From Lysinibacillus fusiformis (GTDB taxonomy: Bacteria > Bacillota > Bacilli > Bacillales_A > Planococcaceae): DNA of 64,000 nt. The notes under the pieces are model-generated. The model searched no databases and was not told where the DNA came from. It was given only the letters and a program-made list of their open reading frames with translations. Both the position numbers and the translations under genes were made by a program. Shown one piece after another: positions 3,336 through 20,835 of this stretch. Each line of letters opens with the position of its first letter. Position 1 is the first letter of the stretch. Where the stretch lies: assembly GCF_007362955.1 (NCBI RefSeq), contig NZ_CP041696.1, forward strand, positions 3,286,001 to 3,350,000. The letters are read 5' to 3'.

Positions 3336-4198
3336 ACAATTGCCCTCGCTTTCTGCTGTTTACTTAAATACACTAACATGTCTTGTAGAGAAACACTTTC
3401 ACGTGTAATATTGTTGCCTTCTATTGAGCGTCCATTGGCATAGACTACGGCGGTCATTTCATGCATGAACGAATGCTGGTAAATAACCTCCAAACCAGCA
3501 GTTGCCTGCTCGACATCAAGAGCGCCACCTTTCACAGCGACAATATGCTGCCGCCATTCATCCGCCGTTTTTTGAAGTAGTAATTGTCCTTCGTGAAGTA
3601 TAAGGATTTCCTCAAACAACTCACTTGCTTCATCAATTAAATGCGTTGACAAGATAAATAATCTTGGATTTTCAGACTGCTGTTCAATCAATAAATCATA
3701 AAATGTATTACGTCCGGCTACATCTAGCCCGATATAGGGTTCATCAAAAATCGTGATGCCTGCATTGCTAGCAAAGCCTGTAATAATACCCAGTGCCGAG
3801 ACCAATCCCTTCGACAGACTGCGCACTTTGTCTTTCGGATTAAGCGCAAATACCTGTAGCAGCTCTAAAGCAAGATGTTCATCCCATTTTGGATAAAAGA
3901 AGCTATTGGCTTTTAAGCTTTGAGCAATGGTCATTTCCTCTTGAAAATTACCACTCTCTGCAACAAAGCAAATGTCACGTAAAATAGCTGGGGCATTAAA
4001 GACATGTTCTCCATTCACACAAACACTCCCGTTAGATGGAGCAATCAGTCCTGCTAACAGATTTAAGAAGGTCGTTTTTCCAGCACCGTTATGACCTAAG
4101 AAACCAATGATTTTCGGACCTTCAATCGTAAACGAGACATTTTTTAGTGCCTGCTTGTGCTTATACGATTTACTTACATTACTTACTTTAATCATCAT
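3332..4198 (-). CDS. ABC transporter ATP-binding protein (YtrB/YhcH type)
   Basis: A 288-residue nucleotide-binding subunit. Walker A GHNGAGKTT is at residues 35-43, a shortened signature LSKGL lies in the middle, and Walker B with the D-loop reads TIFDEPYIGLD, followed by the H-loop STHLIDEA. A C-terminal extension of about 80 residues is typical of exporter ATPases paired with YtrA-type regulators. RBS GGGG precedes the double ATG start at 4198/4195. It lies directly after the GntR gene (3-nt gap) and overlaps the permease. It probably powers an ABC-2 type export system. Confidence 0.85.
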   Translation of the reverse strand: MMIKVSNVSKSYKHKQALKNVSFTIEGPKIIGFLGHNGAGKTTFLNLLAGLIAPSNGSVCVNGEHVFNAPAILRDICFVAESGNFQEEMTIAQSLKANSFFYPKWDEHLALELLQVFALNPKDKVRSLSKGLVSALGIITGFASNAGITIFDEPYIGLDVAGRNTFYDLLIEQQSENPRLFILSTHLIDEASELFEEILILHEGQLLLQKTADEWRQHIVAVKGGALDVEQATAGLEVIYQHSFMHEMTAVVYANGRSIEGNNITRESVSLQDMLVYLSKQQKARAIV

Positions 4199-5296: not shown

Positions 5297-6985
5297 TCAT
5301 TTTTTATCCCCTCGTATTTGTTGCGTAAACATCGTATAAAAAAGGCCGCGCTGTGTAAGCAATTGTTCAAATGTGCCACTTTCTGCTAGTGTGCCATTAT
5401 TCATCACGAAGATGCGGTCCATTTTTGCTAAATCTATTAGCTTATGTGTAATCAGGACAATTGTTTTATCTTTTCCTTTTGTAAGTATAGTGTTAAATAA
5501 ATGTACCTCGGTTTGGGCATCTACACTCGTGAATGGTTCATCTAACAGCCATAGGTCACTATTTTTTAATAGTACACGTGCAAAGGCAAGGCGTTGTTTT
5601 TCGCCTCCCGATAAATTGCCGCCTTTTTCATAGACAATAGCAGTTAATGATTTCGTAATAAATACTTGGTCGAGCACTTGCTGTAGTTCTTCATCTGTCG
5701 CGGTTGGTTTTGCCAGTAGTAAATTTTCTCGAAGGGTTCCAGAGAAAAAGTGATTATGCTGTAATTGAATAGTCATTTGTGCCCAAAGTTCCTGCTCATC
5801 GATAGAGCGCATCGGCTGCTCATTTATAAAAATCTCGCCACTAATCGGCTTGAGCCCATGAATAAGCAGTTGAAATAATGTCGATTTGCCAGAGCCACTT
5901 GGACCGACAATCGCTACTTTTTCACCTGCGACGATTGTACAATTGACATGTAAAACAGCAGAATGCAATGTGTTTTGATACGAATAAGATACATTTTCAC
6001 ATGTAATGTGCAATGGCTTATTGCTTACTAATGGCATACGCTCAGTAGGAGAAGCGGGTGGTGCAATCGCATCTAATCGCGCGGTCGCTTCTTGAGCATT
6101 TTTATAATGACTAGGTAGCATCGCAAGTGGGATAGCCGATTCAAACACTGTTAATGCCACTAATACTAGCATCGCAAGGTATAAACCATCTAAAGTACCG
6201 ATTGAAACGAAATAGGCCCCTACACTGACGATGAAAAACGCCGTTAATAAAGAAATGAACTGATTCCAAAAATGCATGCTTTGTTCACGATTTAGCTCTT
6301 GTTTTTTTAGTCGTGAATAATCTGTACTTATGATTTGTAACGACTGTTCCTTCGTTGCTAATTGGTAATGTAGCTGTAAATCACGGTAACCGTATAAATA
6401 TTCCGCTGCTTCATTTGTAAATGCATTTTTGACCTGCACAGCTGTATTCGATTTTTGATAAATCAAAATTGCAGGGACGACTGTACTTGTGAACATAAAG
6501 CCAATCATCAAAATCAGTGCTAGCCACGGTGAAAACCACAGTGTAAAAAGAATCGTTGCGAAAAAAACAAATAGCGCAATAAACGGTGGATAGACGACCC
6601 TTAAGAAAAAATGTTGCAATAGATCCACATCACTCGTAATTCGATTTAATAAATCGCCACTTTTGTATGCCTGTAATAAGTTTGTTTGCGGTACTAACTT
6701 TTTAAAAAAGCGCATGCGTACAGCACTCATAAAGCGAAAGGTAACACGGTGTGAAATAAAGCGTTCGGCATATTTACTAACTGATTTGACAACACCGAAA
6801 AGCTTTAAAAATGCCGTTAAAATCAAAATAATATAAAAAGGAGGCATGAGAGCCGCTTTTGAAATGAGAAAGCCACTTTGTGCAAATAATGCTACTGCTG
6901 TAAGACCGCTAATTGTACCAGTGGTCATCGCAAGTAGCACATCTTTTTTATCATGTAAAATCATCTGAATAAGTGCTTTCATCAT
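5297..6985 (-). CDS. cydC: Thiol reductant ABC exporter subunit CydC
   Basis: A 562-residue half of the heterodimeric CydDC ABC exporter, which moves glutathione/cysteine-type thiols or handles haem so that bd oxidase can be assembled. The N-terminal ~310 residues are a six-helix membrane domain; the C-terminal NBD has Walker A GPSGSGKST, signature LSGGEKQRLA and Walker B LWLLDEPF. Its start overlaps the end of cydD by 35 nt, so the two are co-translated. The same chromosomal region carries cydABS rightward at 15.4-17.8 kb. The CydC/CydD split rests on order and on general similarity. Confidence 0.88.
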   Translation of the reverse strand: MMKALIQMILHDKKDVLLAMTTGTISGLTAVALFAQSGFLISKAALMPPFYIILILTAFLKLFGVVKSVSKYAERFISHRVTFRFMSAVRMRFFKKLVPQTNLLQAYKSGDLLNRITSDVDLLQHFFLRVVYPPFIALFVFFATILFTLWFSPWLALILMIGFMFTSTVVPAILIYQKSNTAVQVKNAFTNEAAEYLYGYRDLQLHYQLATKEQSLQIISTDYSRLKKQELNREQSMHFWNQFISLLTAFFIVSVGAYFVSIGTLDGLYLAMLVLVALTVFESAIPLAMLPSHYKNAQEATARLDAIAPPASPTERMPLVSNKPLHITCENVSYSYQNTLHSAVLHVNCTIVAGEKVAIVGPSGSGKSTLFQLLIHGLKPISGEIFINEQPMRSIDEQELWAQMTIQLQHNHFFSGTLRENLLLAKPTATDEELQQVLDQVFITKSLTAIVYEKGGNLSGGEKQRLAFARVLLKNSDLWLLDEPFTSVDAQTEVHLFNTILTKGKDKTIVLITHKLIDLAKMDRIFVMNNGTLAESGTFEQLLTQRGLFYTMFTQQIRGDKK

Positions 6986-8681
6986 ACGTACCTCTTTTCT
7001 TCATATATTCGTAAAACGGGTGAGATGCTAATTGTGCATGCGTGCCGCTCACGCTAACTTGACCATTTTCAATAATATATAATGTATCAGCATGCTGAAT
7101 GCTCTCGAATCGATGTGCGACCGTAATGACGGTTGCATGTTGACGGAATGAATACATCGCTTGTGTGAGCAGTTGCTCTGTTAACACATCCAGTCCTGCA
7201 GTTGGTTCATCGAAAAATAAAATTGCTGGGTTCTTTAAAAAAGCACGAGCAATAGCGACGCGTTGTTTTTCGCCACCAGATAATCCACGTCCACCTTCAC
7301 CGATGTTTGTGTCTAATTGTTCAGACAATTTGTCCAGCCAAGATGTGAGTTGTGCTTTATGCAATGCTTCATAAATCTCCTCATCAGTAGCTGAAAGCCC
7401 CATTCGAATATTATCTCGAAGCGTACCAGCAAATACATATGGATGTTGCGAAATATAGCTCATTTGACGATACCAATCTTGCTCAGACAGTTGTATGCGC
7501 GGTTTACCATCGATTAAAACCGCACCGTTAGATAATTCCACCATACTTGACAGCATATTTAAAATCGTTGTTTTACCGTGACCAGTTGGACCGATTAAAG
7601 CAACCATTTCCCCAGGTTTTACATCAAGAGAAATTGGTCCAATGAGCGGCCCATTTTCATATTGGTACGTTGCGTTTTGTAAGGAAAGCTGTGGTTTATC
7701 GTCAATCGGCTCTTTGCCCCAATGCACGGGTGTTGCGGTTGTTTGCATAGCCTCTTCAATAACGGAAACCGCACCTAAACTTCCTCGACCTGTATGAAAA
7801 GCAGCGCCGAGTTCTTTTAAGGAATTGTAGTACTCAGGCGCTAACGTTAAAACAAAAAATGCAGGAGCAAAAGTGAGCGACTGAAAGACAATCATTTGAA
7901 AGCCAATTTCGAGCGCGACCAATCCGACCCCTAATGTTGTAATTAGTTCAATAAATAATGTGGAAACAAAAGCAATTCTTAAAACGGACAATGTACGTTC
8001 CATAAATCCTTTATTGCTTTCTGCTAGCACTGCCTCTTGCTTATCGCTTTGTCCAAAAAGACGAATCGTTTGAAGCCCTTGCAGTAAATCAAGGAATTTC
8101 CCAGAAAATCGATTCATCGCCACTAATTGTTCTTCGGATTTTGCTTTTGTTTGCATGCCGACCATGATATACGTTAACGGAATAAACGGAGCTGTAATGA
8201 GCATAATCCAGCCACTTGCCACATGTGTCATAAATACAGCAATTATCACAATGAGGGGTACGACGGTTGTTTTGATGACCTGTGGTATATATTCCCGGTA
8301 GTAACTTTCTAATTGATCTACTGTATCAATTAACAATGTCACCTTTTCACCTGTTTGTGTGGTCATTTGCGTTTCCATTGCATTTTGTGTCCAATGCTGA
8401 AGCAATGTTTGGCGAATCGAATTTTTGATACGCTCAGCCAATGTCCCGCCTATTCTATTTAGCCAAAACTGTGTAAATAAGCGTAACAGGATAGCAAGAA
8501 ATAATAATAGTAAAAAACGAAGTGTAGATGAAAAAGGACTTTGTTCTATAAATACAAGGTTGACAATTTGCACAATGCTATAGCCTTGTAAAACGATACT
8601 GCAACCTAAAAATACAGATAAAACAAAGAGGACAAGCAGCTTCCCTTTATGTGCCGCTGCCCATGTTTGTAAAGAATGCAT
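6951..8681 (-). CDS. cydD: Thiol reductant ABC exporter subunit CydD
   Basis: A 576-residue membrane-NBD half-transporter pairing with CydC for cytochrome bd assembly. The membrane domain occupies about residues 1-320; the NBD contains GPTGHGKTT (Walker A with His in place of the usual Ser/Ala), GLSGGEKQRVAIARA and FFDEPTAGLD. AAAGGAG sits 8 nt before ATG 8681. It is the first gene of the leftward cyd unit and is divergent from the sulfide:quinone oxidoreductase gene. A TAGGGG-N4-CCACTA site at 8732-8747 is placed as an activator site for its promoter. Confidence 0.88.
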   Translation of the reverse strand: MHSLQTWAAAHKGKLLVLFVLSVFLGCSIVLQGYSIVQIVNLVFIEQSPFSSTLRFLLLLFLAILLRLFTQFWLNRIGGTLAERIKNSIRQTLLQHWTQNAMETQMTTQTGEKVTLLIDTVDQLESYYREYIPQVIKTTVVPLIVIIAVFMTHVASGWIMLITAPFIPLTYIMVGMQTKAKSEEQLVAMNRFSGKFLDLLQGLQTIRLFGQSDKQEAVLAESNKGFMERTLSVLRIAFVSTLFIELITTLGVGLVALEIGFQMIVFQSLTFAPAFFVLTLAPEYYNSLKELGAAFHTGRGSLGAVSVIEEAMQTTATPVHWGKEPIDDKPQLSLQNATYQYENGPLIGPISLDVKPGEMVALIGPTGHGKTTILNMLSSMVELSNGAVLIDGKPRIQLSEQDWYRQMSYISQHPYVFAGTLRDNIRMGLSATDEEIYEALHKAQLTSWLDKLSEQLDTNIGEGGRGLSGGEKQRVAIARAFLKNPAILFFDEPTAGLDVLTEQLLTQAMYSFRQHATVITVAHRFESIQHADTLYIIENGQVSVSGTHAQLASHPFYEYMKKRGTYDESTYSDDFT

Positions 8682-8702: not shown

Positions 8703-8708
8703 ATATTA
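8703..8708 (-). promoter_or_regulatory. Candidate -10 box of cydDC
   Basis: Read leftward this is TAATAT, lying 31.5 bp from the centre of the palindrome at 8732-8747, the same geometry as at the two other palindromes. An overlapping TATATT (8713-8708) is an alternative. The predicted leader would be only about 15 nt but would still contain AAAGGAG. Confidence 0.4.
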
Positions 8709-8731
8709 ATATAGATAAATACAAATAAAAT

Positions 8732-8747
8732 TAGGGGTTTTCCACTA
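8732..8747 (-). promoter_or_regulatory. NreC-like response-regulator site, cydDC side
   Basis: TAGGGG-TTTT-CCACTA, one mismatch from the 6-4-6 palindrome seen at 8765 and 14400. Its position relative to a leftward -10 suggests it serves cydDC. Confidence 0.55.
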
Positions 8748-8764
8748 AAAAAACAAGTCTTGTT

Positions 8765-8780
8765 TAGGGGGAAACCCCTA
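8765..8780 (+). promoter_or_regulatory. NreC-like response-regulator site, sqr side
   Basis: TAGGGG-GAAA-CCCCTA, a perfect 6-4-6 palindrome centred at 8772.5. A -10-like TATGAT begins at 8804, 31.5 bp away, and there is no good -35 between, as expected for an activator-dependent promoter. Confidence 0.7.
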
Positions 8781-8857
8781 TATTTTTGAAATATAGATTT
8801 TACTATGATTAGAGTGTAAAGTTTCACAACACAAAAATGCAGAAAGAAGGAAGAAGC

Positions 8858-10051
8858 GTGAAAAATTCTTTCAAAGTCGTCATTGTTGGTGGGGGAACAG
8901 CTGGTATTTCTGTTGCCGCTCGCTTATTGAGAAAATCGCAAAGCCTCAACCATGAAGTGGCGATTATAGATCCAGCATCAAAGCATTATTATCAGCCGTT
9001 ATGGACGCTTGTCGGTGGAGGAGCTGCTAAAAAAGAAGATTCGGAACGTTCAATGGACTCTATTATCCCAGAAGGTGCAGAATGGATTCAACAACCTGTG
9101 CTTGAATTTAAACCTGAACAAAACGAAGTCACCCTAGGCGATCAAACATCTGTTACGTACGATTACTTAGTTGTAGCAGGCGGTATTGAAATTAACTGGG
9201 GTGCCATTAAAGGGTTAAAAGAAGCGCTTGGTACAAAATCTGTTTGCAGTAACTATTCATTTGAACATGTAGATTATACATGGGAAACGATTCGTAATTT
9301 AAAATCAGGTACAGCCTTATTTACACACCCGAATTCACCAGTAAAATGCGGTGGTGCACCACAAAAAATTATGCATATAGCTGAAGATTACTTCCGTAAA
9401 GCGGGTGTTCGTCAAAATATGAAAGTTGTATTCGGTTCAGCAAATCCAGCCATTTTCGATGTACTCAAATACCGTGAGGCGTTAGAAAAAGTAGTGGAAC
9501 GAAAACAAATCGATACACGATTCCGCCGTAACTTAATCGAAATTAAAGCGGATGAAAAAATTGCAATCTTTGATAATCTAGATACCGGTGCGAAAGAGGA
9601 AGTGAAGTATGACATGATTCACGTCACACCTTATATGAATGCACCCAAATTTATCGCGAATAGCCCATTAGCTGATCAAAATGGTTGGGTAGATGTAGAT
9701 ATGTATACATTGCAACATAAAAAATATACGAACGTGTTTGGCATTGGCGACTGTGCAAATTTACCGACATCTAAGACCGGGGCAGCCATCCGTAAGCAAG
9801 CGCCTGTCGTAGCCGAAAATGTCCTCGCTTGTATGCGCAATCAAACAATGGATAAAACGTATAACGGTTATTCATCTTGCCCAATCGTCACAGGTTACAA
9901 CAAGCTAATTTTAGCAGAGTTTGACTATACAAAAGAGCCTGCTGAATCTATGCCATTTAACCAAGCCGTTGAACGTACGAGCATGTATATGCTGAAAAAA
10001 GATTTATTACCAATCATGTACTGGGATGGCATGCTAAAAGGAACGATGTAG
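8858..10051 (+). CDS. sqr: Sulfide:quinone oxidoreductase, FAD-dependent
   Basis: A ~397-residue pyridine-nucleotide-disulfide-type flavoprotein that oxidises sulfide to sulfane sulfur and passes electrons to the quinone pool at the membrane face. The N-terminus has the FAD motif VVIVGGGTAGIS; the conserved cysteines of SQRs appear in SVCSNYSF, VKCGGAPQKIM and SSCPIVTGYNK; the FAD-contact GIGDCANLPTSKTGAA lies near residue 290. The C-terminus is amphipathic and could seat it on the membrane. I prefer GTG 8858, 4-5 nt after AAGAAGGAAG; ATG 8837 is an alternative adding 7 residues. It heads an operon with DUF1641 and a CstB-like enzyme. Confidence 0.87.
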   Translation: MKNSFKVVIVGGGTAGISVAARLLRKSQSLNHEVAIIDPASKHYYQPLWTLVGGGAAKKEDSERSMDSIIPEGAEWIQQPVLEFKPEQNEVTLGDQTSVTYDYLVVAGGIEINWGAIKGLKEALGTKSVCSNYSFEHVDYTWETIRNLKSGTALFTHPNSPVKCGGAPQKIMHIAEDYFRKAGVRQNMKVVFGSANPAIFDVLKYREALEKVVERKQIDTRFRRNLIEIKADEKIAIFDNLDTGAKEEVKYDMIHVTPYMNAPKFIANSPLADQNGWVDVDMYTLQHKKYTNVFGIGDCANLPTSKTGAAIRKQAPVVAENVLACMRNQTMDKTYNGYSSCPIVTGYNKLILAEFDYTKEPAESMPFNQAVERTSMYMLKKDLLPIMYWDGMLKGTM

Positions 10052-10067
10052 AAAGGAGGCATATGTA

Positions 10068-10607
10068 ATGGAAACGAATCCGTTACTAGAGCAACTAAAG
10101 CAGCCGGATGTTCAAGCAGCTCTCGTATCATTATTACAGCAATTGCCGACCTATGAAAAAAACTTACAAGCAATCGGCAATATAGTAAGTTTTGGACAAG
10201 CGGTATTACAAGATCAGCAAGCCATTCAAAAATACGACGAACTTGTACGAAGCTATAACTTAAATCTTGAAACAGTGGAAGCATTAGTTGGCTTACTAGA
10301 AAAATTGCCGAAACTTTTACAAATGATCAATCAGTTAGAAAACGTGCTCGATTTTGCAACAGCTGTATTAGCGGATCAACAAACAATCGATTATGCAACA
10401 GCAAGTATCCAATCCTACGCAGAACCTGTTGTAGAAAAAGGAAAACAAGGCTTATCGCTAGTAAAAGAAATTCAACAACAAGCAGAAGCAACAACAGAAC
10501 CAGTAAAACTCTTTACCATTATGAAATGGTTAAAAGAACCGAGTGTTCAACAGTCACTGAAATATGTGCAAGCAACACTACAGGTTTTAAATAAACAATC
10601 AAATTAA
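10068..10607 (+). CDS. DUF1641 family protein
   Basis: A 179-residue, almost entirely helical protein with no membrane segments, rich in Gln and Leu. Its sequence fits the DUF1641 family (B. subtilis YrhD type), which occurs next to SQR or formate dehydrogenase genes. It lies 16 nt after sqr and 14 nt before the dioxygenase gene, each with an AGGAGG-type RBS (GAAAGGAGGC, AAAGGAGAG), so it is part of the same transcript. A partner or electron-transfer scaffold role with SQR is inferred from the neighbourhood only. Confidence 0.75.
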   Translation: METNPLLEQLKQPDVQAALVSLLQQLPTYEKNLQAIGNIVSFGQAVLQDQQAIQKYDELVRSYNLNLETVEALVGLLEKLPKLLQMINQLENVLDFATAVLADQQTIDYATASIQSYAEPVVEKGKQGLSLVKEIQQQAEATTEPVKLFTIMKWLKEPSVQQSLKYVQATLQVLNKQSN

Positions 10608-10621
10608 AAGGAGAGAATTTT

Positions 10622-12016
10622 ATGTTATTACGTTATTTCTATGATGAAAAATTAGCACACGCTTCTTACCTGGTAGGTTGTCAACGAAAAGGCGAGGCAG
10701 TGATTGTTGACCCAATGCGCAACATTGAGCCATACATCCAAGTAGCAGAAAAAGAAAATATGAAAATTGTTGGGGCATTAGAAACGCACATCCATGCCGA
10801 TTTTGTAGCAGGTTCTCGTGAATTAGCCGATCGTTTCGGTGCAACAATGTATATTTCAGATGAAGGCGATGAAAACTGGAAATATCAAAATTTAGAAGGC
10901 ATTAACCATGTGTTATTAAATGATGGTGACAAATTTGAACTTGGTAAGCTTACTTTTGAAGTAATGCATACACCAGGTCATACGCCAGAATCGATTTCAT
11001 TCCTGTTAACAGATGGAGCAGCGGCAGACAAACCAATGGGCTTCTTTACAGGTGACTTCGTGTTTGCTGGGGATATTGGTCGACCAGACTTACTTGAAAA
11101 AGCAGCAGGTATTCAAGGTACAGCTGATGCAGGAGCAAAAGTGATGTATACATCTGTGGAGCGCTTTAAGCAATTACCGGACTATTTACAAGTATGGCCA
11201 GCACATGGAGCAGGTAGTGCGTGTGGGAAAGCGCTTGGTGCAGTACCTTCTACAACAGTTGGCTATGAAAAACAATTCAACTGGGCAATGCAATTTGACA
11301 ACGAGCCAGACTTCGTGAAAGCATTATTAGATGGTCAACCAGAACCACCTTATTACTTTGCAGTGATGAAATCAGTCAATAAAATTGGTATTGAGTTAAT
11401 TAAAAATTTACCAGAGTCAAAAGTTATTACTTCTGTTGAAGAAATTGAAGGATTGATTGCAGCAGGGCGGCAAGTAGTAGATACACGTGATGCACAAAGC
11501 TTCTCACAAGGACATATTAAGGGAACGATGAACGTGCCATTTAATAACTCATTCACAAACTGGATGGGCTGGATTGTTAACTACAAGGAACCTTTATATT
11601 TACTAGTTGATCCTGCTCAGATGAATGACATGCTGATCGCACTTCGTTCAATCGGTATTGACCAAGTACTAGGTTATGCAGATGTAGAAGCGATGATTGA
11701 GCAAGCGAATGTACTAGATTCATATGAAAATGTTACACCTTCAGAGGCAAAAGCGATGATGGACGCAGAAGATGTAGCTGTATTAGATGTGCGTAATCTG
11801 ACAGAATATAATGAAGGGCATATTGAAGGTGCACAGCACATTATGGTTGGTACATTAAAAAATCGTTTAGATGAAGTGCCAAATAAAAAACTCATTGTTC
11901 AATGTCAAGCAGGTGGTCGTTCTGCTATTGCAGCCAGCATATTAAAAACAAATGGCTTCCACAATTTAGTCAATATGACTGGCGGCTACGGTCAATGGGT
12001 GATAGAAGTAAAATAG
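10622..12016 (+). CDS. CstB-like persulfide dioxygenase-rhodanese fusion
   Basis: A 464-residue, three-domain enzyme. Residues ~1-260 are an ETHE1-like metallo-beta-lactamase dioxygenase (THIHADF, MHTPGHTPES, TGDFVFAGDIGRPDL, WPAHGAGSACGK). Residues ~265-350 are a rhodanese fold with no active-site cysteine. Residues ~365-464 are a complete rhodanese with the active loop VQCQAGGRS. This order matches the CstB of the staphylococcal cst operon, which oxidises persulfides made by SQR and passes sulfur to thiosulfate. It follows sqr and DUF1641 and is followed by a strong hairpin. The persulfide source could also be a low-molecular-weight thiol such as bacillithiol. Confidence 0.85.
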   Translation: MLLRYFYDEKLAHASYLVGCQRKGEAVIVDPMRNIEPYIQVAEKENMKIVGALETHIHADFVAGSRELADRFGATMYISDEGDENWKYQNLEGINHVLLNDGDKFELGKLTFEVMHTPGHTPESISFLLTDGAAADKPMGFFTGDFVFAGDIGRPDLLEKAAGIQGTADAGAKVMYTSVERFKQLPDYLQVWPAHGAGSACGKALGAVPSTTVGYEKQFNWAMQFDNEPDFVKALLDGQPEPPYYFAVMKSVNKIGIELIKNLPESKVITSVEEIEGLIAAGRQVVDTRDAQSFSQGHIKGTMNVPFNNSFTNWMGWIVNYKEPLYLLVDPAQMNDMLIALRSIGIDQVLGYADVEAMIEQANVLDSYENVTPSEAKAMMDAEDVAVLDVRNLTEYNEGHIEGAQHIMVGTLKNRLDEVPNKKLIVQCQAGGRSAIAASILKTNGFHNLVNMTGGYGQWVIEVK

Positions 12017-12027
12017 TTAATCATTAT

Positions 12028-12060
12028 AAAGAGTGCCTTCTAATGTGAGGCACTCTTTTG
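12028..12060 (+). terminator. Hairpin/attenuator between the dioxygenase and the downstream rhodanese-sensor genes
   Basis: AAAGAGTGCCT (12028-12038) pairs perfectly with 12048-12058, followed by TTTTG and immediately by the GGAGG of the next gene. The short T-run suggests partial termination, lowering expression of the downstream two-component genes. Confidence 0.65.
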
Positions 12061-12068
12061 GAGGTTTT

Positions 12069-12434
12069 ATGAAAATTTTACTAATCGGTGTAGTGAGCAT
12101 TGTCTTAGCGCGTACTTTTTATATCCGTCTTGTCCCTGTCAAACAGGTGAAAGCCATTCCGTATCGCCAAGTAGATGAAGCATATCAAATACTTGATGTG
12201 CGTGATTACAATACAGCAGGCTGTTTAGTTTATAATAGTAAGCATATCCCGTACGGCTACTTGCCAAGTTTTTATATAGAAATCGAAAATCGCCCCATCC
12301 ATCTGCTTGTAGAAAGTCAAATAGATTTAAACATGGCTAGCCGTTTTTTACGGAAAAAAGGGTATAGTGTAAATAGTTATACGATGATGAAAAAAACGTG
12401 TAAAGTAAAAGGGTTGATTTATAAGGAGGCGTAA
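12069..12434 (+). CDS. Membrane-anchored rhodanese-like protein lacking the active cysteine
   Basis: A 121-residue protein with one N-terminal membrane segment (LLIGVVSIVLARTFYI) and a rhodanese-like domain: ILDVRDYN, HIPYGYLPSFY, then IHLLVESQIDLNMASRFLR where an active rhodanese would carry Cys in the loop. The catalytic Cys is replaced by Ser, so transfer of sulfur is unlikely; a binding or sensing role next to the kinase is possible. ATG 12069 follows TTTGGAGG; a longer frame from 12033 would run through the hairpin and is rejected. It is separated by 3 nt from the sensor kinase. Confidence 0.7.
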   Translation: MKILLIGVVSIVLARTFYIRLVPVKQVKAIPYRQVDEAYQILDVRDYNTAGCLVYNSKHIPYGYLPSFYIEIENRPIHLLVESQIDLNMASRFLRKKGYSVNSYTMMKKTCKVKGLIYKEA

Positions 12435-12437
12435 AGT

Positions 12438-13472
12438 ATGCAATCCCGCCTACAAAATGAATATTTTCAGCAAATTTATGAGCATATTCAAGATGGCATT
12501 ATCATTATGAAGGAAAGCAGGGAAATCATTATGATGAACCCTGCTGCACAACACTTGACGGATTGGGAGAATGGTGATTTTGTGCCGTACTGCTCCTATT
12601 GTATGACCCGAAAAAAGGAACAAGGCGAACCTACTTGTTATTTGATTGCGAACAACGAAGTGCCTTCATTTTTATCCGAAATGCCAACATATCATGGTAG
12701 AAAAATTGATGTCGAAATGAGCACAGCCGCTATTTATGCCAATGAAAATACAGGGGAAACAGAATATTTGCTTGTCTTACGTGATCAAGAAACTTTTAAA
12801 AAAGCACAAGAGGCGGCCATCAATAAAAAAATGATTCGAGCATTAATTGAGGCAAAAGAATCGGAACATAAACGGTTAGCGCAAGAACTACATGATGGTG
12901 TCGGACAATCATTATTTTCTGTATCTGTTGCGATGCAAGCGATTGAATCATTTGTTCAAGATAATGCGCAGTTGAATGAGTATATTTCTGAGGTACGTGT
13001 GGAACTGCAAAAGGTAATGAAAGACATTAACGCGTACTCTCATCAATTGCGACCGCACAGTTTAGACCAATTAGGATTAGAGCCAACAATTCAAGCGACA
13101 ATAGATGCGATTAAAAAAAATAGACCGGATTTGGATATTCAATTAACGACACGTGGTCTTGACCGATGTGACCCAGCAGTGGAGATTAACTTGTATCGTA
13201 TCACACAAGAAGCGTTGCATAATATTATTAAATATGCAAAAGCAACCCAAGTGCATATCCATATTAAAAAGGACAACACGCATATTTATATGACCATTCA
13301 AGATAACGGGGTTGGCTTTGAGCGAGAGAAGGTTCAAAATGCGGGGCTTGGTCTAAAGCATATGGAAGAACGGGTCGATCAGTTGGGCGGTACTTGTACA
13401 ATCATGTCAAAATTAGGACAAGGTACATGTATTGATATTGTCATTCCGAGATGGAGGCCGCAACATGATTAA
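12438..13472 (+). CDS. NreB-like sensor histidine kinase, three-cysteine variant
   Basis: A 344-residue soluble kinase. Residues ~8-120 look like a PAS domain; a HisKA_3 dimerisation domain carries the phospho-acceptor His152 in LAQELHDGVGQS; the HATPase domain has QEALHNIIKYAKA and DNGVGFEREK. In the PAS domain the cysteines are C52-X2-C55-X11-C67, the exact spacing of the first three ligands of the oxygen-labile Fe-S cluster of staphylococcal NreB, but the fourth position (residue 70) is Ile. There are no membrane segments. It overlaps its response regulator by 8 nt. It may sense O2, redox or sulfane sulfur; which one cannot be told. Confidence 0.82.
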   Translation: MQSRLQNEYFQQIYEHIQDGIIIMKESREIIMMNPAAQHLTDWENGDFVPYCSYCMTRKKEQGEPTCYLIANNEVPSFLSEMPTYHGRKIDVEMSTAAIYANENTGETEYLLVLRDQETFKKAQEAAINKKMIRALIEAKESEHKRLAQELHDGVGQSLFSVSVAMQAIESFVQDNAQLNEYISEVRVELQKVMKDINAYSHQLRPHSLDQLGLEPTIQATIDAIKKNRPDLDIQLTTRGLDRCDPAVEINLYRITQEALHNIIKYAKATQVHIHIKKDNTHIYMTIQDNGVGFEREKVQNAGLGLKHMEERVDQLGGTCTIMSKLGQGTCIDIVIPRWRPQHD

Positions 13473-14100
13473 AATATTGCTCGTCGATGACCATGTTTTA
13501 ATACGAAAGGGCATTGCGCTTCTTTTAGGGAATTATCCAGATATTACAGTTGTAGGAGAGGCAAGTGACGGGGAAGAGGCCATTCAGCTTGCCTACCAAA
13601 CAGCGCCGAATGTGATTTTAATGGATATTTCTATTCCAAATGGTTTAGATGGTTTTACTGCTACGAAGGAAATTAAAAAAAATTTACCTGAAATGAAAGT
13701 CATTATGCTGACGATGCATAACGAAATAGCCTATATTCAACAGGCAATGGAAGTTGGTGCGAATGGCTATATATTAAAAAATAGCCAAGGTGGCGAAATG
13801 TATGAAGCAATTCAAAGTGTGTATACAGGACGCCGTTACTATGAGGTCGGATTGCCACAAGAACAAATCGAAAAATTATTTAAGAAAAAAGGGAAAAACA
13901 ACCCGGATATATTATCAACACGTGAACAAGAAATTGTTCGATTAACGATTTTAGGGTTTACGAATATGCAAATTGCAGAAAAGCTATTTATTAGTGCTAA
14001 AACGGTAGAAAATCATAAAGCCAATATTATGCAAAAGCTACATTTAAAAAGCAAGGCAGAACTCATTCAATATGGCATTACGAATAAGTACATTACGTAG
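13465..14100 (+). CDS. NarL/NreC family response regulator
   Basis: A 211-residue regulator: receiver domain with acidic pocket D8/D9, phospho-acceptor Asp54 (ILMDISIP) and Lys in ILKNS, then a LuxR-type helix-turn-helix (LSTREQEIVRLTILGFTNMQ, IAEKLFISAKTVENH). ATG 13465 follows GATGGAGG and lies inside the kinase gene end. The best candidates for its binding sites are three TAGGGG-N4-CCCCTA palindromes at 8732, 8765 and 14400, which resemble the GC-rich palindrome reported for NreC. It probably activates cydDC, sqr and TSUP-cydABS. Confidence 0.85.
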   Translation: MIKILLVDDHVLIRKGIALLLGNYPDITVVGEASDGEEAIQLAYQTAPNVILMDISIPNGLDGFTATKEIKKNLPEMKVIMLTMHNEIAYIQQAMEVGANGYILKNSQGGEMYEAIQSVYTGRRYYEVGLPQEQIEKLFKKKGKNNPDILSTREQEIVRLTILGFTNMQIAEKLFISAKTVENHKANIMQKLHLKSKAELIQYGITNKYIT

Positions 14101-14120
14101 TATGCGAGGGCTGTCTAATA

Positions 14121-14157
14121 AAATCTGCTCATCCTTAAAATAGGTGGGCAGATTTTT
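14121..14157 (+). terminator. Terminator of the sqr/two-component operon
   Basis: AAATCTGCTC pairs with GGGCAGATTT (one G-U) and is followed by TTTTTT. Confidence 0.75.
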
Positions 14158-14254
14158 TGATATTTTTATATTGGTTAGTGGTTTTAAAAGAATTTTTCAG
14201 ACCGTCTTTTTGCATAGATTAGCCTCTTCACCATCCATTCTTACCCTTGTCTTG

Positions 14255-14285
14255 AGCGATAAAGCAATCGGCTTTATCGCTTTTT
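14255..14285 (+). terminator. Second Rho-independent terminator
   Basis: AGCGATAAAGC (14255-14265) pairs perfectly with 14271-14281 around a 5-nt loop, followed by TTTTT. It insulates the next operon from readthrough. Confidence 0.8.
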
Positions 14286-14394
14286 ACATACTAGATACTT
14301 AGGGAAAGAATAGAAACTTGTTCATCATCATCCTCCCAATAGTTTTCCTCATATCATTGATTTTCCGAACACACAAATCCGCCTTTTTCTCCGG

Positions 14395-14420
14395 AAGTAT
14401 AGGGGCTTACCCCTATACTT
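14395..14420 (+). promoter_or_regulatory. NreC-like palindrome upstream of the TSUP-cyd operon
   Basis: A perfect 11-bp inverted repeat (AAGTATAGGGG / CCCCTATACTT) with spacer CTTA, centred at 14407.5. The -10-like TATACT starts at 14439, again 31.5 bp away, and no -35 consensus is present. Confidence 0.75.
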
Positions 14421-14477
14421 TAGAAACAACGCACTCTCTATACTTAAAGTAAATAAGGTAGAAGGAAGGTGTGTACG

Positions 14478-15254
14478 ATGGATTTTACATTCATCGTCGT
14501 CATATTTTTAATTGGTTTTATTGGATCATTCGTATCAGGGATGGTAGGTGTTGGAGGATCCATCATTAAATACCCAATGCTCTTGTATATTCCTCCGTTA
14601 TTTGGGTTAGCAGCCTTCACCGCACATGAAGTATCTGGTATTAGTGCCGTTCAAGTATTTTTTGCATCGATTGCAGGTGTATGGGCATATCGAAAAAGCG
14701 GCTATTTAAACAAAACACTTATTCTTTATATGGGTACGGCTATTTTAGTAGGTAGCTTCATCGGTAGCTTTGGTTCCAGCATGTTATCAGAAGCGGCAGT
14801 GAATATTGTATACGGTGTTTTAGCCTTGATTGCAGCTGTGATGATGTTTATTCCTAAAAAGCAAATTGACGATAAGCCGTTAGATCAAATTACATTTAGT
14901 AAACCACTAGCAGCGAGCCTGGCGTTTATCGTTGGGATTGGTTCGGGGGTTGTTGGAGCAGCAGGTGGCTTTTTATTAGTACCAATTTTACTCGTTGTAT
15001 TGAAAATCCCAACACGTATGACGATTGCAACGAGCTTAGCAATTACGTTTATTTCATCGATTGGTGGAACAGTCGGCAAAATTATGACAGGGCAAATCGA
15101 CTATGGACCAGCAGCGGTAATGATTGTGGCAAGTATACTTGCGGCTCCACTTGGCGCAAAAATCGGCGGCAAGCTCAATACAAAAGCACTACAAACTATT
15201 TTAGCACTATTAATTTTAGGTACAGCCATTAAAACATGGTTAGATATTTTATAA
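14478..15254 (+). CDS. TSUP (TauE/SafE) family sulfite exporter
   Basis: A 258-residue membrane protein with about eight hydrophobic segments in two repeats, each with the TSUP glycine/proline-rich motif ([17 protein letters not shown] in the first, [16 protein letters not shown] in the second). TSUP proteins export sulfite, sulfonates or thiosulfate. Placed beside SQR and a persulfide dioxygenase, it most likely removes sulfite or thiosulfate made during sulfide oxidation. ATG 14478 sits 8 nt after GAAGGAAGG; GTG 14469 overlaps the RBS and is rejected. It is the first gene of the cydABS transcript. Confidence 0.82.
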
Positions 15255-15267
15255 GAGGTGATTGGTT

Positions 15268-15357
15268 ATGGAAAAATCGAAAGGATTTATGATTACGAGC
15301 TTCACCATTTCAGCTGTTTTTCTAGTAGCAGTGATTACAACAATATTTGGAGTTTAG
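15268..15357 (+). CDS. 29-residue single-pass membrane peptide ahead of cydA
   Basis: ATG GAA AAA TCG AAA begins a 29-residue peptide with an N-terminal charged MEKSKG followed by a hydrophobic helix (FTISAVFLVAVITTIFGV) and TAG at 15355. AGAGGTG lies about 8 nt upstream. It is tucked between TSUP (13 nt) and cydA (12 nt). Its length and layout match the 29-residue E. coli bd-I accessory subunit CydH/YnhF, but sequence identity at this size proves nothing. It may be an extra bd-oxidase subunit. Confidence 0.6.
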   Translation: MEKSKGFMITSFTISAVFLVAVITTIFGV

Positions 15358-15369
15358 GAGTGAGTCCAG

Positions 15370-16710
15370 ATGGAAGAGGCAACTGTCTTTTGGAGTAGGG
15401 CATTAACCGAATTAACGTTATCTTTCCATATTATTTTTGCAACACTCGGTGTGGGTGTGCCGTTAATGATTTTAATTGCTCAATATGTAGGCTATAAGAA
15501 AAATGATATGCACTACACGATGATGGCAAGACGTTGGGCGCGTGGCTTTACGATTACAGTCGCAGTCGGTGTCGTAACAGGTACAGTCATCGGCTTACAG
15601 CTATCGTTACTGTGGCCAGAGTTTATGGAATTAGCAGGGCAAGTTATTGCACTACCGCTATTCATGGAAACATTCGCATTCTTCTTTGAGGCGATTTTCT
15701 TAGGAATCTATTTATACACATGGGATCGATTTAAGAATCCAAAAAATCATATATTATTGCTCATTCCTGTAGCAATAGGGGCATCAATGTCAGCCGTTTT
15801 TATTACGATTGTCAATGCCTTTATGAATGCACCGCAAGGGTTTGATATCGTCGATGGCGAGCTCATCAATATTCAACCAATTTTAGCGATGTTTACACCG
15901 GCCATGCCGACAAAAATCGGGCATGTACTAGTAACAAGTTATATGACGGTCGCATTTATTTTAGCGGCGATTGCAGCGTATAAGCTATTGCGCGGCGAAA
16001 ACCATATGTATCACAAAAAAGCATTATTTATGATGATGAAATTAGGTGTTATTTTCTCTATTGCTTCTGCATTAGTTGGTGACTTTTCAGCAAAATACTT
16101 AGCTGAATATCAGCCTGACAAGCTAGCCGCAGCAGAGTGGCATTTTGAAACAGAAGAAGGGGCAGATTTAATCTTCTTTGGTGTACTAGATGAAGGGGAA
16201 ATCAAGTATGAAATCCGCATTCCTAAAATGTTAAGCTTTTTAGCTAGTAATGATTTCAATGCACAAGTGATTGGCTTAGATCAATATCCAGAAGACGAAC
16301 ATCCACCACTCATTATCCACTATTTCTTTGATATCATGGTAGCGATCGGTATGATGATGATTTTCCTTTCAGTTGCTTATATAGTAGGGAAATGGAGAAA
16401 GTGGCAGTGGGTTGAATCGAAATGGTTCCGAGTGCTGATTGTTTTAAGTGGTCCATTATCACTTGTAGCGATTGAAGCAGGTTGGTGGTTAGCGGAATTA
16501 GGACGACAACCATGGATATTATATGGCATTATGCGAACAGAAGACGGCGCGACAAGTGCTACCGGCGTAGAATATTTATTTATCGCCTTTGCGATTGTTT
16601 ACTTTGTGTTGGCAATCGGTAGTTTAGTCGTATTACATCGCATGTTTAAAAACAACCCGGTTGAAAAAGAATTAGCAGCACGACAAGGCGGTGATTCTGT
16701 ATGGCATTAG
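15370..16710 (+). CDS. cydA: Cytochrome bd-type quinol oxidase subunit I
   Basis: A 446-residue membrane subunit carrying the haems and the quinol site. The haem-ligand His20 is in LTLSFHIIFATLGVG; a second conserved His is in TKIGHVLVTSYM; the proton/haem Glu region is METFAFFFEAIFLGIYLY; the hallmark EAGWWLAELGRQPW is near residue 375. At 446 residues with a short Q-loop it belongs to the short-loop group common in Firmicutes. RBS GGAGTGAG precedes ATG 15370. bd oxidases resist sulfide poisoning, which fits the neighbouring sulfide-oxidation genes. Confidence 0.92.
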   Translation: MEEATVFWSRALTELTLSFHIIFATLGVGVPLMILIAQYVGYKKNDMHYTMMARRWARGFTITVAVGVVTGTVIGLQLSLLWPEFMELAGQVIALPLFMETFAFFFEAIFLGIYLYTWDRFKNPKNHILLLIPVAIGASMSAVFITIVNAFMNAPQGFDIVDGELINIQPILAMFTPAMPTKIGHVLVTSYMTVAFILAAIAAYKLLRGENHMYHKKALFMMMKLGVIFSIASALVGDFSAKYLAEYQPDKLAAAEWHFETEEGADLIFFGVLDEGEIKYEIRIPKMLSFLASNDFNAQVIGLDQYPEDEHPPLIIHYFFDIMVAIGMMMIFLSVAYIVGKWRKWQWVESKWFRVLIVLSGPLSLVAIEAGWWLAELGRQPWILYGIMRTEDGATSATGVEYLFIAFAIVYFVLAIGSLVVLHRMFKNNPVEKELAARQGGDSVWH

Positions 16711-17729
16711 AAATACTAGGTATTTCGGTACTTTGGCTCTTCTTATTTGGCTATGTGATTGTCGCATCGATTGATTTTGGCGCAGGATTTTTTAATGCCT
16801 ATAGTTTAATGCGCGGCAATGACCATATTGTGTCAAACATTATTAAGCGGTATTTATCTCCGGTATGGGAAATTACGAACGTCTTTTTAGTCTTTTTCTT
16901 TGTCGGGATTGTTGGATTCTTTCCGCAAACCGCATATTTCTACGGTACCATTTTATTAGTACCGGCTTCTGTTGCGCTTATTTTGCTAGCGATTCGCGGT
17001 AGTTACTATGCCTTTGAATCTTATAGCGGTATGAGCGGACATAAAGGCTATGCACTCGCTTATGGGGTGTCAGGTCTTTTTATCCCAGCTGCATTTTCGG
17101 TCATTCTAACAATTTCTGAAGGTGGCTTTGTTACGATGCAAGGCGATCATCCAGTTTTAGACTACAAAGCATTGCTGACAAGTCCATTATCATGGTCCAT
17201 CGTTGTATTAAGTATCATTGCAGTACTGTATATCTCAGCTGTCTTTTTAACATGGTACGCACAAAAAGCAGGAGATCATAAAGCAAGTGAATTGATGCGT
17301 AAATATGCGCTTACTTGGGCGATTCCCCTTATCGTTAGTGGTCTTGGCATCATCATCGAGTTAAAAGCGTTTGGGAATTGGCATTATGCCCAAATGGTTG
17401 ATTTATCTTGGTTATTTGCGCTAACCGGCATTGTCTTTTTAGCAACGGTTTGGCTATTATGGGCGAAAGTAAAATACGGGTTAGCGGTCATTTTATTAAT
17501 CGTCCAGTTTGCGATCGCCTTCTTTGCCTATGGGATTTCACACTATCCATATCTACTCTATCCGTATTTAACGATTCATGATAGTTTTACAAATGAAGCG
17601 ATGGCCATAGCACTCGTTGTGGCATTTGTCGCAGGCTTAGTGTTGCTTGTACCTTCTTTATATTTAGTATTTAAGCTATTTGTCTTTAACAAAGACTATG
17701 TATCTGGTAAAGAAGAAACACATGTATAA
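16701..17729 (+). CDS. cydB: Cytochrome bd-type quinol oxidase subunit II
   Basis: A 342-residue membrane subunit with about nine hydrophobic helices and the conserved start WLFLFGYVIVASIDFGAGFF, followed by the WEITNVFLVFFFVGIVGFFP region. It overlaps the end of cydA by 10 nt, so the two are translationally coupled. It partners CydA in a quinol:O2 oxidoreductase in the cytoplasmic membrane. The cydS-like reading frame follows 13 nt downstream. Confidence 0.9.
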   Translation: MALEILGISVLWLFLFGYVIVASIDFGAGFFNAYSLMRGNDHIVSNIIKRYLSPVWEITNVFLVFFFVGIVGFFPQTAYFYGTILLVPASVALILLAIRGSYYAFESYSGMSGHKGYALAYGVSGLFIPAAFSVILTISEGGFVTMQGDHPVLDYKALLTSPLSWSIVVLSIIAVLYISAVFLTWYAQKAGDHKASELMRKYALTWAIPLIVSGLGIIIELKAFGNWHYAQMVDLSWLFALTGIVFLATVWLLWAKVKYGLAVILLIVQFAIAFFAYGISHYPYLLYPYLTIHDSFTNEAMAIALVVAFVAGLVLLVPSLYLVFKLFVFNKDYVSGKEETHV

Positions 17730-19412: not shown

Positions 19413-19716
19413 CTATGTTTTAGGGATATTAGTGGAGTCTGATGAAAAACGCTTTAGTCAACAGGTGTATTTATCAATTGTAGTACATATTTAAGGATTT
19501 ACTCAATGAGTTTAATTTAGACAATAATTTGTTAGGGGCGATGTAAAAATGACACATTTTGAATACATGGAGCAAATGATATAAACCAATATCAGAAACG
19601 ATGCTGAAGGGTAAAAGGGGCAAGTAAAAGACGATATATTGTACGGAGATAAGAAAGGGGTTTATCCCTAAATCATTATTTAATGACTTTTGGAACAACC
19701 CCGAATTCTTTACTTA
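19413..19716. other. Decayed intergenic DNA
   Basis: Short protein-like runs on the + strand (for example [20 protein letters not shown], ending at a TAA near 19492) suggest more gene debris, but no intact frame with an RBS was found. A leftward 74-codon frame at 19474-19698 is hydrophobic at random and lacks an RBS. Confidence 0.35.
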
Positions 19717-20835
19717 TTAATGCTGTGGAAGATAGTCGTGGCCGTTTATTGTTAGTTTAGAAGCAAAGATGAGAATTTCTTTATTTGCTTCATAATATGG
19801 ATCTAAAATAGTGTGAAATGCTTCCCATTTTCCTTCAGCTTTTTCATCTTCACCATTACGATCCAGAACTATTGCCTCTTCGTAAATCTCTTTTAATTTT
19901 TCTTTATCTGATGTGCTGATTTCGAAATAAATATCAGACATATATTCATCAAATGAAAGAGAATTAATATACGGACGAATTAATTGATAGTATTCATCCC
20001 ATAATTTTTCATACAATTCATCATTGTCATCTTTAAGTGCTTTTTGTTGCTCTTCAAAGTTAGTTTTTAATTTTGTTAAGACATCTTCTGGAAGATCCTT
20101 CAATCCTGATTCAGCTATGAATTCTTCAAATGTTTGTGGTGGATATAATGCTTCTAGATAAGGGTCAAGAATCTTATAAAATTCATCTAATTTTTTCGAC
20201 GCTTCTTCCTCTTTACCGCCCTTTTCTAGCTTGATCCATTCTTCATAAATTACTTTAAGTTGATCATTATCTGATTCTTTTATAACTAAACTATTGCCAT
20301 TAAATTCATATGTAGCTATATACTCTTCAAAGGATTCAGGCATCCAATTAGCTAGCTCATAAGGTTTGATGATTTTGTGCATCTCTTGATACATTTCATC
20401 TGCTTCGTCATACTTCTTTTCTTGTTCTAACTTCTGCATTTCTTTATACATTATTTCTAATTTCTTTAGATCTTCTTTTGAGATTTCTTTAGGTAAGTTC
20501 TTTTTATATACTTCAAATGTGTAGAACTCTGAAGAATCTTTCAATACACTGCCTTCAACTGAAATTTGTTGTCCTTCTACTAAGTTCATTTGTTCGATTT
20601 GCTCATCTGCGAATTTTTGTAATCCTACATAGTAAAACTTGCCGTCATCCCCTTTAATAAAACATGAGTCTCCAAACATAAATTTAATAGTCCCTTTAAT
20701 TTGTTGTTCCTTTTGAACTGATGCTTCAATTGTTTTTTCTGCTGATGCAACGCCAACTTGAAATGGCGAGAAGACGGCCATTCCAATTGTTAATGCTGAA
20801 GCAATCATCAAAGTTTTTTTAAACGGTTTTTTCAT
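19717..20835 (-). CDS. Secreted protein with four ~55-residue helical repeats
   Basis: A 372-residue exported protein. Residues 1-32 form a signal peptide (MKKPFKKTLMIASALTIGMA ... ASAE). Residues ~40-110 look like a small beta barrel (IKGTIKFMFGDSCFIKGDDG, VEGQQISVEGSVLKDSSEF) of OB/BOF character. Four acidic repeats follow, each with the pattern LKxxYEExxKLEx-GxxxEAxxxxxEFYKILDPY then a PxxFEEYIA-like linker; they look like paired TPR-like helices. No enzyme motif or anchor is visible. RBS AAAGGAGAA lies about 8 nt before ATG 20835. It is on a repeat-rich accessory segment; function unknown. Confidence 0.7.
   Translation of the reverse strand: MKKPFKKTLMIASALTIGMAVFSPFQVGVASAEKTIEASVQKEQQIKGTIKFMFGDSCFIKGDDGKFYYVGLQKFADEQIEQMNLVEGQQISVEGSVLKDSSEFYTFEVYKKNLPKEISKEDLKKLEIMYKEMQKLEQEKKYDEADEMYQEMHKIIKPYELANWMPESFEEYIATYEFNGNSLVIKESDNDQLKVIYEEWIKLEKGGKEEEASKKLDEFYKILDPYLEALYPPQTFEEFIAESGLKDLPEDVLTKLKTNFEEQQKALKDDNDELYEKLWDEYYQLIRPYINSLSFDEYMSDIYFEISTSDKEKLKEIYEEAIVLDRNGEDEKAEGKWEAFHTILDPYYEANKEILIFASKLTINGHDYLPQH

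Follow-up and report, generated by a model that had tools for sequence, protein, structure and literature searches.

Why should genes for sulfide oxidation and genes for a cytochrome bd oxidase share one locus in Lysinibacillus fusiformis, and could a single regulator control both? The locus lies in a 64,000-nucleotide stretch of contig NZ_CP041696.1 (positions 3,286,001 to 3,350,000, the whole of which is called the window below). Here cydDC runs leftward, and rightward run the genes for a sulfide:quinone oxidoreductase (SQR), a DUF1641-like protein, a persulfide dioxygenase (PDO)-type protein, a small open reading frame (ORF), a histidine kinase and a response regulator, followed by those for a TSUP transporter, CydA, CydB and a CydS-like protein (Table 1). 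An earlier reading made from the sequence alone (the sequence-only reading) had pointed to three palindromes of the type TAGGGG-N4-CCCCTA, ahead of cydDC, sqr and TSUP-cydABS, and had proposed that one regulator unites sulfide oxidation, sulfite export and bd oxidase synthesis. From comparison of related genomes we consider it very probable that the palindromes are operators of the NreC-type regulator encoded at 13465-14100, with its kinase activated by sulfide and sqr, cydDC and TSUP-cydABS switched on. For this organism the signal is proposed by analogy with a characterised relative, and conserved sites are the ground for predicting that the regulator binds and that the promoters of the cyd and TSUP genes are activated.

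Direct reading of the window confirmed the coordinates and mismatch counts that had been given for the three 6-4-6 palindromes, and the distance of 31.5 bp from operator centre to -10-like hexamer is exact at each. In the cydDC operator, read on the minus strand, the distal half is TAGTGG and the proximal half CCCCTA. With up to two mismatches the palindrome occurs four times in the window, a count reached by none of 100 shuffled windows, and the exact copies at 8765-8780 and 14400-14415 are the only two in the 4.97-Mb genome. Across that genome up to two mismatches are found at 54 places, against 37 for the reversed control pattern, and meaning is therefore confined to near-exact genome matches. 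The fourth window match, at 19655-19670 with two mismatches, was rejected as a regulon site: it is located immediately beyond the 3' terminus of the ORF at 19717-20835 and the nearest start is about 600 bp away. Two further sites of the genome with one mismatch were also set aside, one (966151, locus L004) being within a long ORF and the other (641522, locus L003) lying between ORFs with no adjoining regulon gene.

The spacing is kept among relatives. From 130 upstream regions of 450 bp we obtained 84 sites with up to two mismatches, found at 48/62 SQR, 17/41 TSUP, 11/19 cydA and 8/8 cydD regions, which dereplication reduced to 55. Loci L101, L108, L110 and L113 were left out as duplicates from the first-pass geometry, the kinase alignment and the final geometry, L116 and L118 from the latter two, and four loci with four-cysteine kinases (see below) from the final count. 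A TAnnnT hexamer stands exactly 31.5 bp from the centre in 44 of the 55 sites, compared with three at 30.5 bp, six at 32.5 bp and a background of 0.034 per offset; in the earlier pass of 59 sites 76% had a hexamer at that spacing. A -35 element is mostly absent, as had been noted for the window: about 7% of the 55 sites have at least four of the six TTGACA letters at a spacing of 16-18, and the mean match is slightly higher at a spacing of 19 (2.1, against 1.6 overall). If transcription starts about 7 nucleotides past the -10, the operator centre would fall near -43. With starts predicted from the hexamers only, the common spacing and poor -35 would agree with class II-type promoters (site at -41 to -44), and the comparison supports the activator-type geometry that the sequence-only reading had suggested.

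The half-sites differ between promoters. SQR promoters have TAGGGG as their distal half in 36/48 and TAGTGG in none of the 48, whereas TAGTGG is found at cydD in 8/8, cydA in 5/11 and TSUP in 6/17, counts that include close relatives, as does the retention of the promoter-proximal CCCCTA in 74 of the 84 sites. The TAGTGG/CCCCTA form is the nearest site of all eight cydD promoters examined, some of them from close relatives. Our guess would be a weaker affinity at the cyd promoters and hence a delayed response. As a separate observation, the SQR upstream regions of L128, L129 and L131-L134 carry, in the spacer and directly ahead of the -10, a sequence like CGCTTTCA that is similar to a portion of a CcpA cre site and may indicate catabolite control.

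Does the palindrome follow the kinase and regulator from genome to genome? We kept 80 relatives of the regulator, its nearest named one among the matches listed being from Lysinibacillus parviboronicapiens (97%), and first examined the closest 26 (52-97%; loci L016-L041). Upstream of SQR the palindrome is exact at 15/26 and has up to two mismatches at 20/26. L023, from Caryophanon latum, lacks SQR and has sites at cydD and cydA, L025 and L031 have exact sites ahead of a sulfur gene cluster and L027 a one-mismatch site ahead of PDO, while L026 and L040 have no palindrome upstream. In a sample of 151 Planococcaceae genomes, with the kinase called at E <=1e-50 and SQR at E <=1e-80, the kinase was found in 23 and SQR in 16, all 16 carrying the kinase (Fisher p 1.6e-16, relatedness ignored). 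Seven kinase genomes are without SQR (G034, G051, G114, G120, G126, G139 and G150); six of them have cydAB near the kinase and G051 has a PDO-like gene.

Sixteen of the 151 genomes contain the exact palindrome, 12 of the 23 with the kinase and 4 of the 128 without. The relaxed form TAGKGG-N4-CCMCTA is found at 40 places in the 23 kinase genomes, five of which have none, against one place for the reversed control; in 23 kinase-free genomes from three genera the numbers are 10 and 11. Of those 40 sites 34 lie no more than 520 bp upstream of SQR, PDO, TSUP, cydA or cydD, and none of the 10 kinase-free places is near a cydA or cydD match, TSUP genes being outside that check. One example is genome G109, where the TSUP protein is 96.9% identical and the site is about 73 bp upstream of its start. 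The palindromes are thus conserved in orthologous loci, and their co-occurrence with the regulator, together with their absence at cydA in kinase-free genomes, supports the proposal that the NarL/NreC-type protein encoded between the sites is the one that would bind them. Extra sites in G120 and G126 were set aside, since they adjoin the end of a TrpA-like gene (named by eye).

Three side observations concern further sites. In G136 one of the six sites away from the named targets separates the regulator gene from one for a peroxiredoxin, and in the Planococcus-type loci L227 (1501-1516) and L027 (10655-10670) a palindrome occupies the gap from the regulator gene to the one that comes next, which encodes a 1-Cys peroxiredoxin by Pfam in L227 and is equally long in L027; this gene is a possible further member of the regulon. 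The Neobacillus-type loci L044-L046 encode regulator paralogues (43-44%) and have, near 3822-4000, a related palindrome before the gene of a 360-amino-acid membrane-type protein; TACAAT stands 32.5 bp from it, and this may be a sister regulon answering another signal. At L136-L151, with remoter three-cysteine kinases, several of them near PDO-like or cyd genes, a palindrome with no or one mismatch is mostly missing (L148 has a one-mismatch copy downstream of the regulator gene), and therefore the operator may differ there.

The link to cytochrome bd can be judged from 30 cydA loci, scored over about 1.5 kb upstream of each. Ten of the 12 that come from kinase genomes carry a site with no or one mismatch, and the two without are second copies, in G139 and G133; at all 18 kinase-free loci the best matches carry three to five mismatches, with CydA 71-84% identical to the window copy. 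The second cydAB of the window genome is likewise without a site (best match four mismatches) and has a Rex-like match with two mismatches; Rex-like control of the window promoters, where the best such matches carry three to four mismatches, is unsupported. The site-bearing cydAB of G063 (TAGTGGAAAACCCCTA) and the regulator genes are 1.6 Mb apart, and G115, a close relative, has them on different contigs. The two represent one lineage, yet in it an unlinked candidate target has retained the putative operator. Taken together, the comparison supports a regulon that would include cydDC and TSUP-cydABS, and this extension, apparently kept even in genomes without SQR, is what is new here. Among the open-access matches listed none ties NreBC to cytochrome bd or gives a three-cysteine rule, the search having covered neither subscription papers nor supplements.

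In staphylococci the NreC-type operator is TAGGG-N4-CCCTA, and a palindrome of this type is present in the window. The sequence-only reading had likened the palindromes to those of staphylococcal NreC, but judged by sequence the closest system is the sulfide-responsive NreBC of Bacillus licheniformis, and the window kinase is without the fourth Fe-S ligand of NreB. The NreBC of B. licheniformis MW3 responds to sulfide (Tang et al. 2023, PMC9918477). Binding of NreC to the nreC-sqr intergenic region improves when the protein is phosphorylated, mutating a site predicted from Staphylococcus carnosus NreC abolishes binding, and in a strain lacking yrkD transcription of sqr answers 5-20 uM sulfide, not elemental sulfur, after 5 min (PMC9918477). 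The idea of one regulator for sulfide oxidation, sulfite export and bd oxidase is supported by comparative evidence, which for the cyd and TSUP genes is conservation of sequence; as far as sulfide oxidation goes, it was already known from that study of 2023.

The two systems share a kinase and a regulator that are about 50% identical and a linked sqr and pdo. A locus of the B. licheniformis type, L165, has by Pfam the 11-gene order of PMC9918477 (CsoR-type repressor, DsrE, TusA-rhodanese, lactamase-fold/rhodanese, TusA, TauE, thioredoxin, kinase, regulator, SQR-type and PDO-type proteins), and it shares with the window the three PAS cysteines, the regulator clade and an exact palindrome in the nreC-sqr gap, which is presumably the site mutated in that study. 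All six Bacillus loci combine a three-cysteine kinase with an exact TAGGGGAGTTCCCCTA before sqr. In B. licheniformis, however, the CstR-like gene yrkD comes first and nreBC precedes sqr, whereas in the window nreBC follows pdo within the sqr operon, and the YrkD-like protein of L165 has no tblastn match within the 64 kb. The main text of PMC9918477 contains no word starting with 'cyd' or 'oxidase', whereas in the window cydDC and TSUP-cydABS carry sites; the three-cysteine PAS pattern of L165-type kinases was found here and is not stated in the available sections of that paper.

Staphylococcal NreABC resembles the window system in its NarL-family regulator, soluble kinase and GC-rich palindrome (PMC8139620, PMC5694512). 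It differs in having four cysteines, NreA and nar/nir targets, compared with three cysteines, no NreA seen, and sulfide and bd oxidase genes in the window. MarR- and GbsR-type regulators also connect cytochrome bd with sulfide resistance but belong to other families and are described in Chromobacterium and Alishewanella (PMC11837568, PMC6096048). Sulfide-oxidation genes are controlled as well by the repressors CstR and SqrR and the activator FisR, which differ in sensing sulfane sulfur (PMC9918477). In our comparison it is the number of PAS cysteines in the kinase that sets the B. licheniformis and staphylococcal types of NreBC apart. CstR, SqrR and FisR are not known to be two-component systems.

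In NreB the cysteines are spaced C-x2-C-x11-C-x2-C. The four PAS-domain cysteines of that protein bind a [4Fe-4S] cluster (PMC4601167). The window kinase has C52, C55 and C67, and at the position of the fourth ligand it has I70, not cysteine. The pattern C-x2-C-x11-C without a fourth cysteine recurs at 25/25 of the L016-L041 loci with a kinase ORF (L040 has none) and, in further sets in which some loci are counted twice, at 20/20, 36/40 and 6/6 loci, the last being the Bacillus loci (in L165 the stretch is CSYCQTRKLEAGEERC). L106, in the set of 20, also encodes a distant paralogue without the cysteine pattern, and the set of 40 was drawn from 38 of 101 matching genomes, with most lower-scoring matches left out. 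In the other four of those 40 kinases (L152-L155, lower-scoring) the pattern is C-x2-C-x11-C-x2-C, and their loci are without SQR and PDO; L153 and L155 adjoin NarH, L154 and L155 a GAF protein, and L152 neither, as far as seen. In a regulator tree the window and L165 fall in one 65-row clade (support 99/97) and the partners of four-cysteine kinases in their own (99/96), with seven three-cysteine partners elsewhere, a placement that fits a single origin of the three-cysteine type as well as several. The tree took 14 of 39 other regulators, and loci without kinase and regulator within 300 bp were dropped (e.g. L040, L140 and L147). The DNA-recognition helices are alike in both types.

How well do other explanations account for these data? 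A reading of the palindromes as intrinsic terminators, or as GC-rich repeats that arose by chance, has next to no credibility: a scan does list 8765-8780 as terminator-like on account of the T-rich stretch behind it, but the T run is not conserved and the -10 distance is, and the stability of the hairpin is unremarkable (z -1.2). The sites also co-occur with the regulator and are missing at cydA of kinase-free genomes, and chance is countered by the shuffled windows, by the two exact copies being the only ones in the genome and by the 40 places against one in kinase genomes. Binding by another regulator is very improbable, given that within the family sample the site goes with the kinase and that in B. 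licheniformis the sqr promoter region is a target of the related regulator, whose binding is abolished by mutation of the predicted site (PMC9918477).

A somewhat less remote alternative, although still improbable, is that the system is NreBC proper, an oxygen or nitrate sensor whose PAS domain holds [4Fe-4S] on four cysteines, with bd oxidase induced when oxygen is low and the sulfide genes as passengers. The regulator family, the similar recognition helix and the GC-rich palindrome are common to NreC, and bd oxidases are classically low-oxygen enzymes. Yet the fourth cysteine is absent throughout the four locus sets apart from four kinases, which are without SQR or PDO and three of which are beside NarH or GAF; all 16 SQR genomes carry the kinase, and neither nar genes nor NreA (GAF) were seen at the window locus, from the ORF list by eye and Pfam on the main proteins. 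A tentative possibility with clearly greater weight is indirect sensing, of a respiratory block (the quinone redox state) or of polysulfide made by SQR, instead of sulfide binding. The regulon is respiratory, SQR-less genomes keep the kinase with cyd genes, and cysteine-based persulfide sensing is common (PMC9918477); but in yrkD-less B. licheniformis sulfide and not elemental sulfur is effective (PMC9918477), and the kinases of SQR-less genomes cannot depend on polysulfide made by SQR.

Several points weigh against operators of a sulfide-activated NreBC. The signal is carried over from a kinase only about 50% identical, and wild-type B. licheniformis is little induced by sulfide alone, with YrkD repressing nreBC (PMC9918477). 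Six of the 40 kinase-genome sites lie away from the genes named above, the exact palindromes of G120 and G126 are not at regulon genes, and loci L102-L105, from two genera, have kinase and SQR with no site or a two-mismatch site only. No site with up to two mismatches was found in 14/62 SQR, 24/41 TSUP and 8/19 cydA regions, some of these genes being operon-internal, and the hexamer at 31.5 bp is weak in Bacillus loci (TAACTT in 3/6). In addition, related genomes are not independent samples, and most of what supports the cyd link is from a single family.

The gene assignments of the sequence-only reading hold, CydD by NCBIfam and CydA, TSUP and CydB by Pfam, and the regulator has the receiver and GerE helix-turn-helix of the NarL/LuxR family (Pfam). 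A terminator-like hairpin between the PDO and regulator genes is absent from the terminator-scan list, although similar stems fold in L016 and L017; it may restrain self-amplification of nreBC. Directly before cydA is an ORF for a 29-amino-acid membrane-type protein (15268-15357), with a similar ORF before the second cydA of the genome (L158), possibly a CydX-like subunit.

Table 1. Promoter elements and genes of the locus, in window coordinates.
Feature	Position	Strand	Basis
CydC	5297-6985	-	Pfam ABC transporter; name from adjacency to CydD
CydD	6951-8681	-	NCBIfam TIGR02857, 494 bits, over cut-off
cydDC -10-like TAATAT	8703-8708 (leftward from 8708)	-	31.5 bp to operator centre
cydDC putative operator	8732-8747	-	TAGGGGTTTTCCACTA, 1 mismatch; minus-strand letters TAGTGG-AAAA-CCCCTA
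sqr-operon putative operator	8765-8780	+	TAGGGGGAAACCCCTA, 0 mismatches; position kept in relatives
sqr -10-like TATGAT	8804-8809	+	31.5 bp to operator centre
SQR	8837-10051	+	Pfam Pyr_redox_2; NCBIfam type III SQR E 1e-73, below its cut-off
DUF1641-like protein	10068-10607	+	Pfam E 0.0013, below cut-off
PDO-type protein	10622-12016	+	Pfam metallo-beta-lactamase fold and two rhodanese stretches; name by analogy
Terminator-like hairpin	12028-12058	+	fold -17 kcal/mol, z -4.8
Small protein	12069-12434	+	rhodanese-like by eye; no Pfam match up to E 0.01
NreB-like cytoplasmic histidine kinase	12438-13472	+	Pfam PAS, HisKA_3, HATPase_c; PAS C52-x2-C55-x11-C67
NarL/NreC-type response regulator	13465-14100	+	Pfam Response_reg 99.9 bits, GerE 71.2 bits; tree
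TSUP-cydABS putative operator	14400-14415	+	TAGGGGCTTACCCCTA, 0 mismatches
TSUP-cydABS -10-like TATACT	14439-14444	+	31.5 bp to operator centre
TSUP (TauE/SafE) transporter	14481-15254	+	Pfam PF01925, 166 bits
CydA	15370-16710	+	Pfam PF01654, 446 bits
CydB	16701-17729	+	Pfam PF02322, 152 bits
CydS-like small membrane protein, 31 amino acids	17743-17838	+	read from sequence; name by position

In the mechanism that we propose, a soluble relative of NreB with three PAS cysteines would be activated by sulfide, and the phosphorylated regulator, presumably a dimer, would bind some 43 bp ahead of the transcription start and bring RNA polymerase to promoters in which a -10 is present and a usable -35 is lacking. 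The targets switched on would be sqr-DUF1641-pdo-nreBC, which would make the response self-amplifying, cydDC and TSUP-cydABS. SQR would pass electrons from sulfide to quinone, the dioxygenase would yield sulfite for export by TSUP, and the bd oxidase, assembled with CydDC, would sustain respiration under conditions in which haem-copper oxidases would be poisoned by sulfide. What each enzyme does in this pathway is established knowledge.

How the kinase might detect sulfide is a more speculative matter. One idea, which we hold only tentatively, is that its PAS domain is an NreB-type oxygen sensor that became a direct sulfide sensor by losing one Fe-S ligand: a [4Fe-4S] cluster would sit on three cysteines, and its open fourth iron would bind hydrosulfide and so activate the kinase. 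Hydrosulfide binding has a precedent in [4Fe-5S] enzymes such as TudS (PMC10611767). For B. licheniformis PMC9918477 proposes haem for sulfide sensing, with the mechanism needing further work, and this suggests haem as an alternative for the kinase here. In an alignment of 80 kinase rows histidine is present in at most 40 at any PAS column, although the haem ligand might also be a cysteine. Those rows were chosen by the three-cysteine pattern and are therefore unable to test it, as the per-locus counts can. The strict three-cysteine pattern at the Fe-S ligand positions of NreB offers a concrete alternative to haem for which simple mutants are possible.

For the Bacilli these comparisons suggest a rule by which three or four PAS cysteines, with the palindrome 31.5 bp from a -10, would distinguish sulfide-type from nitrate-type NreBC. 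The extension of the regulon would join sulfide detection to a switch to cytochrome bd, which is reported to be sulfide-resistant in other bacteria. If the cluster idea is true, the regulon would couple sulfide directly to the switch of terminal oxidase, and some lineages without SQR would keep the sensor for cytochrome bd alone.

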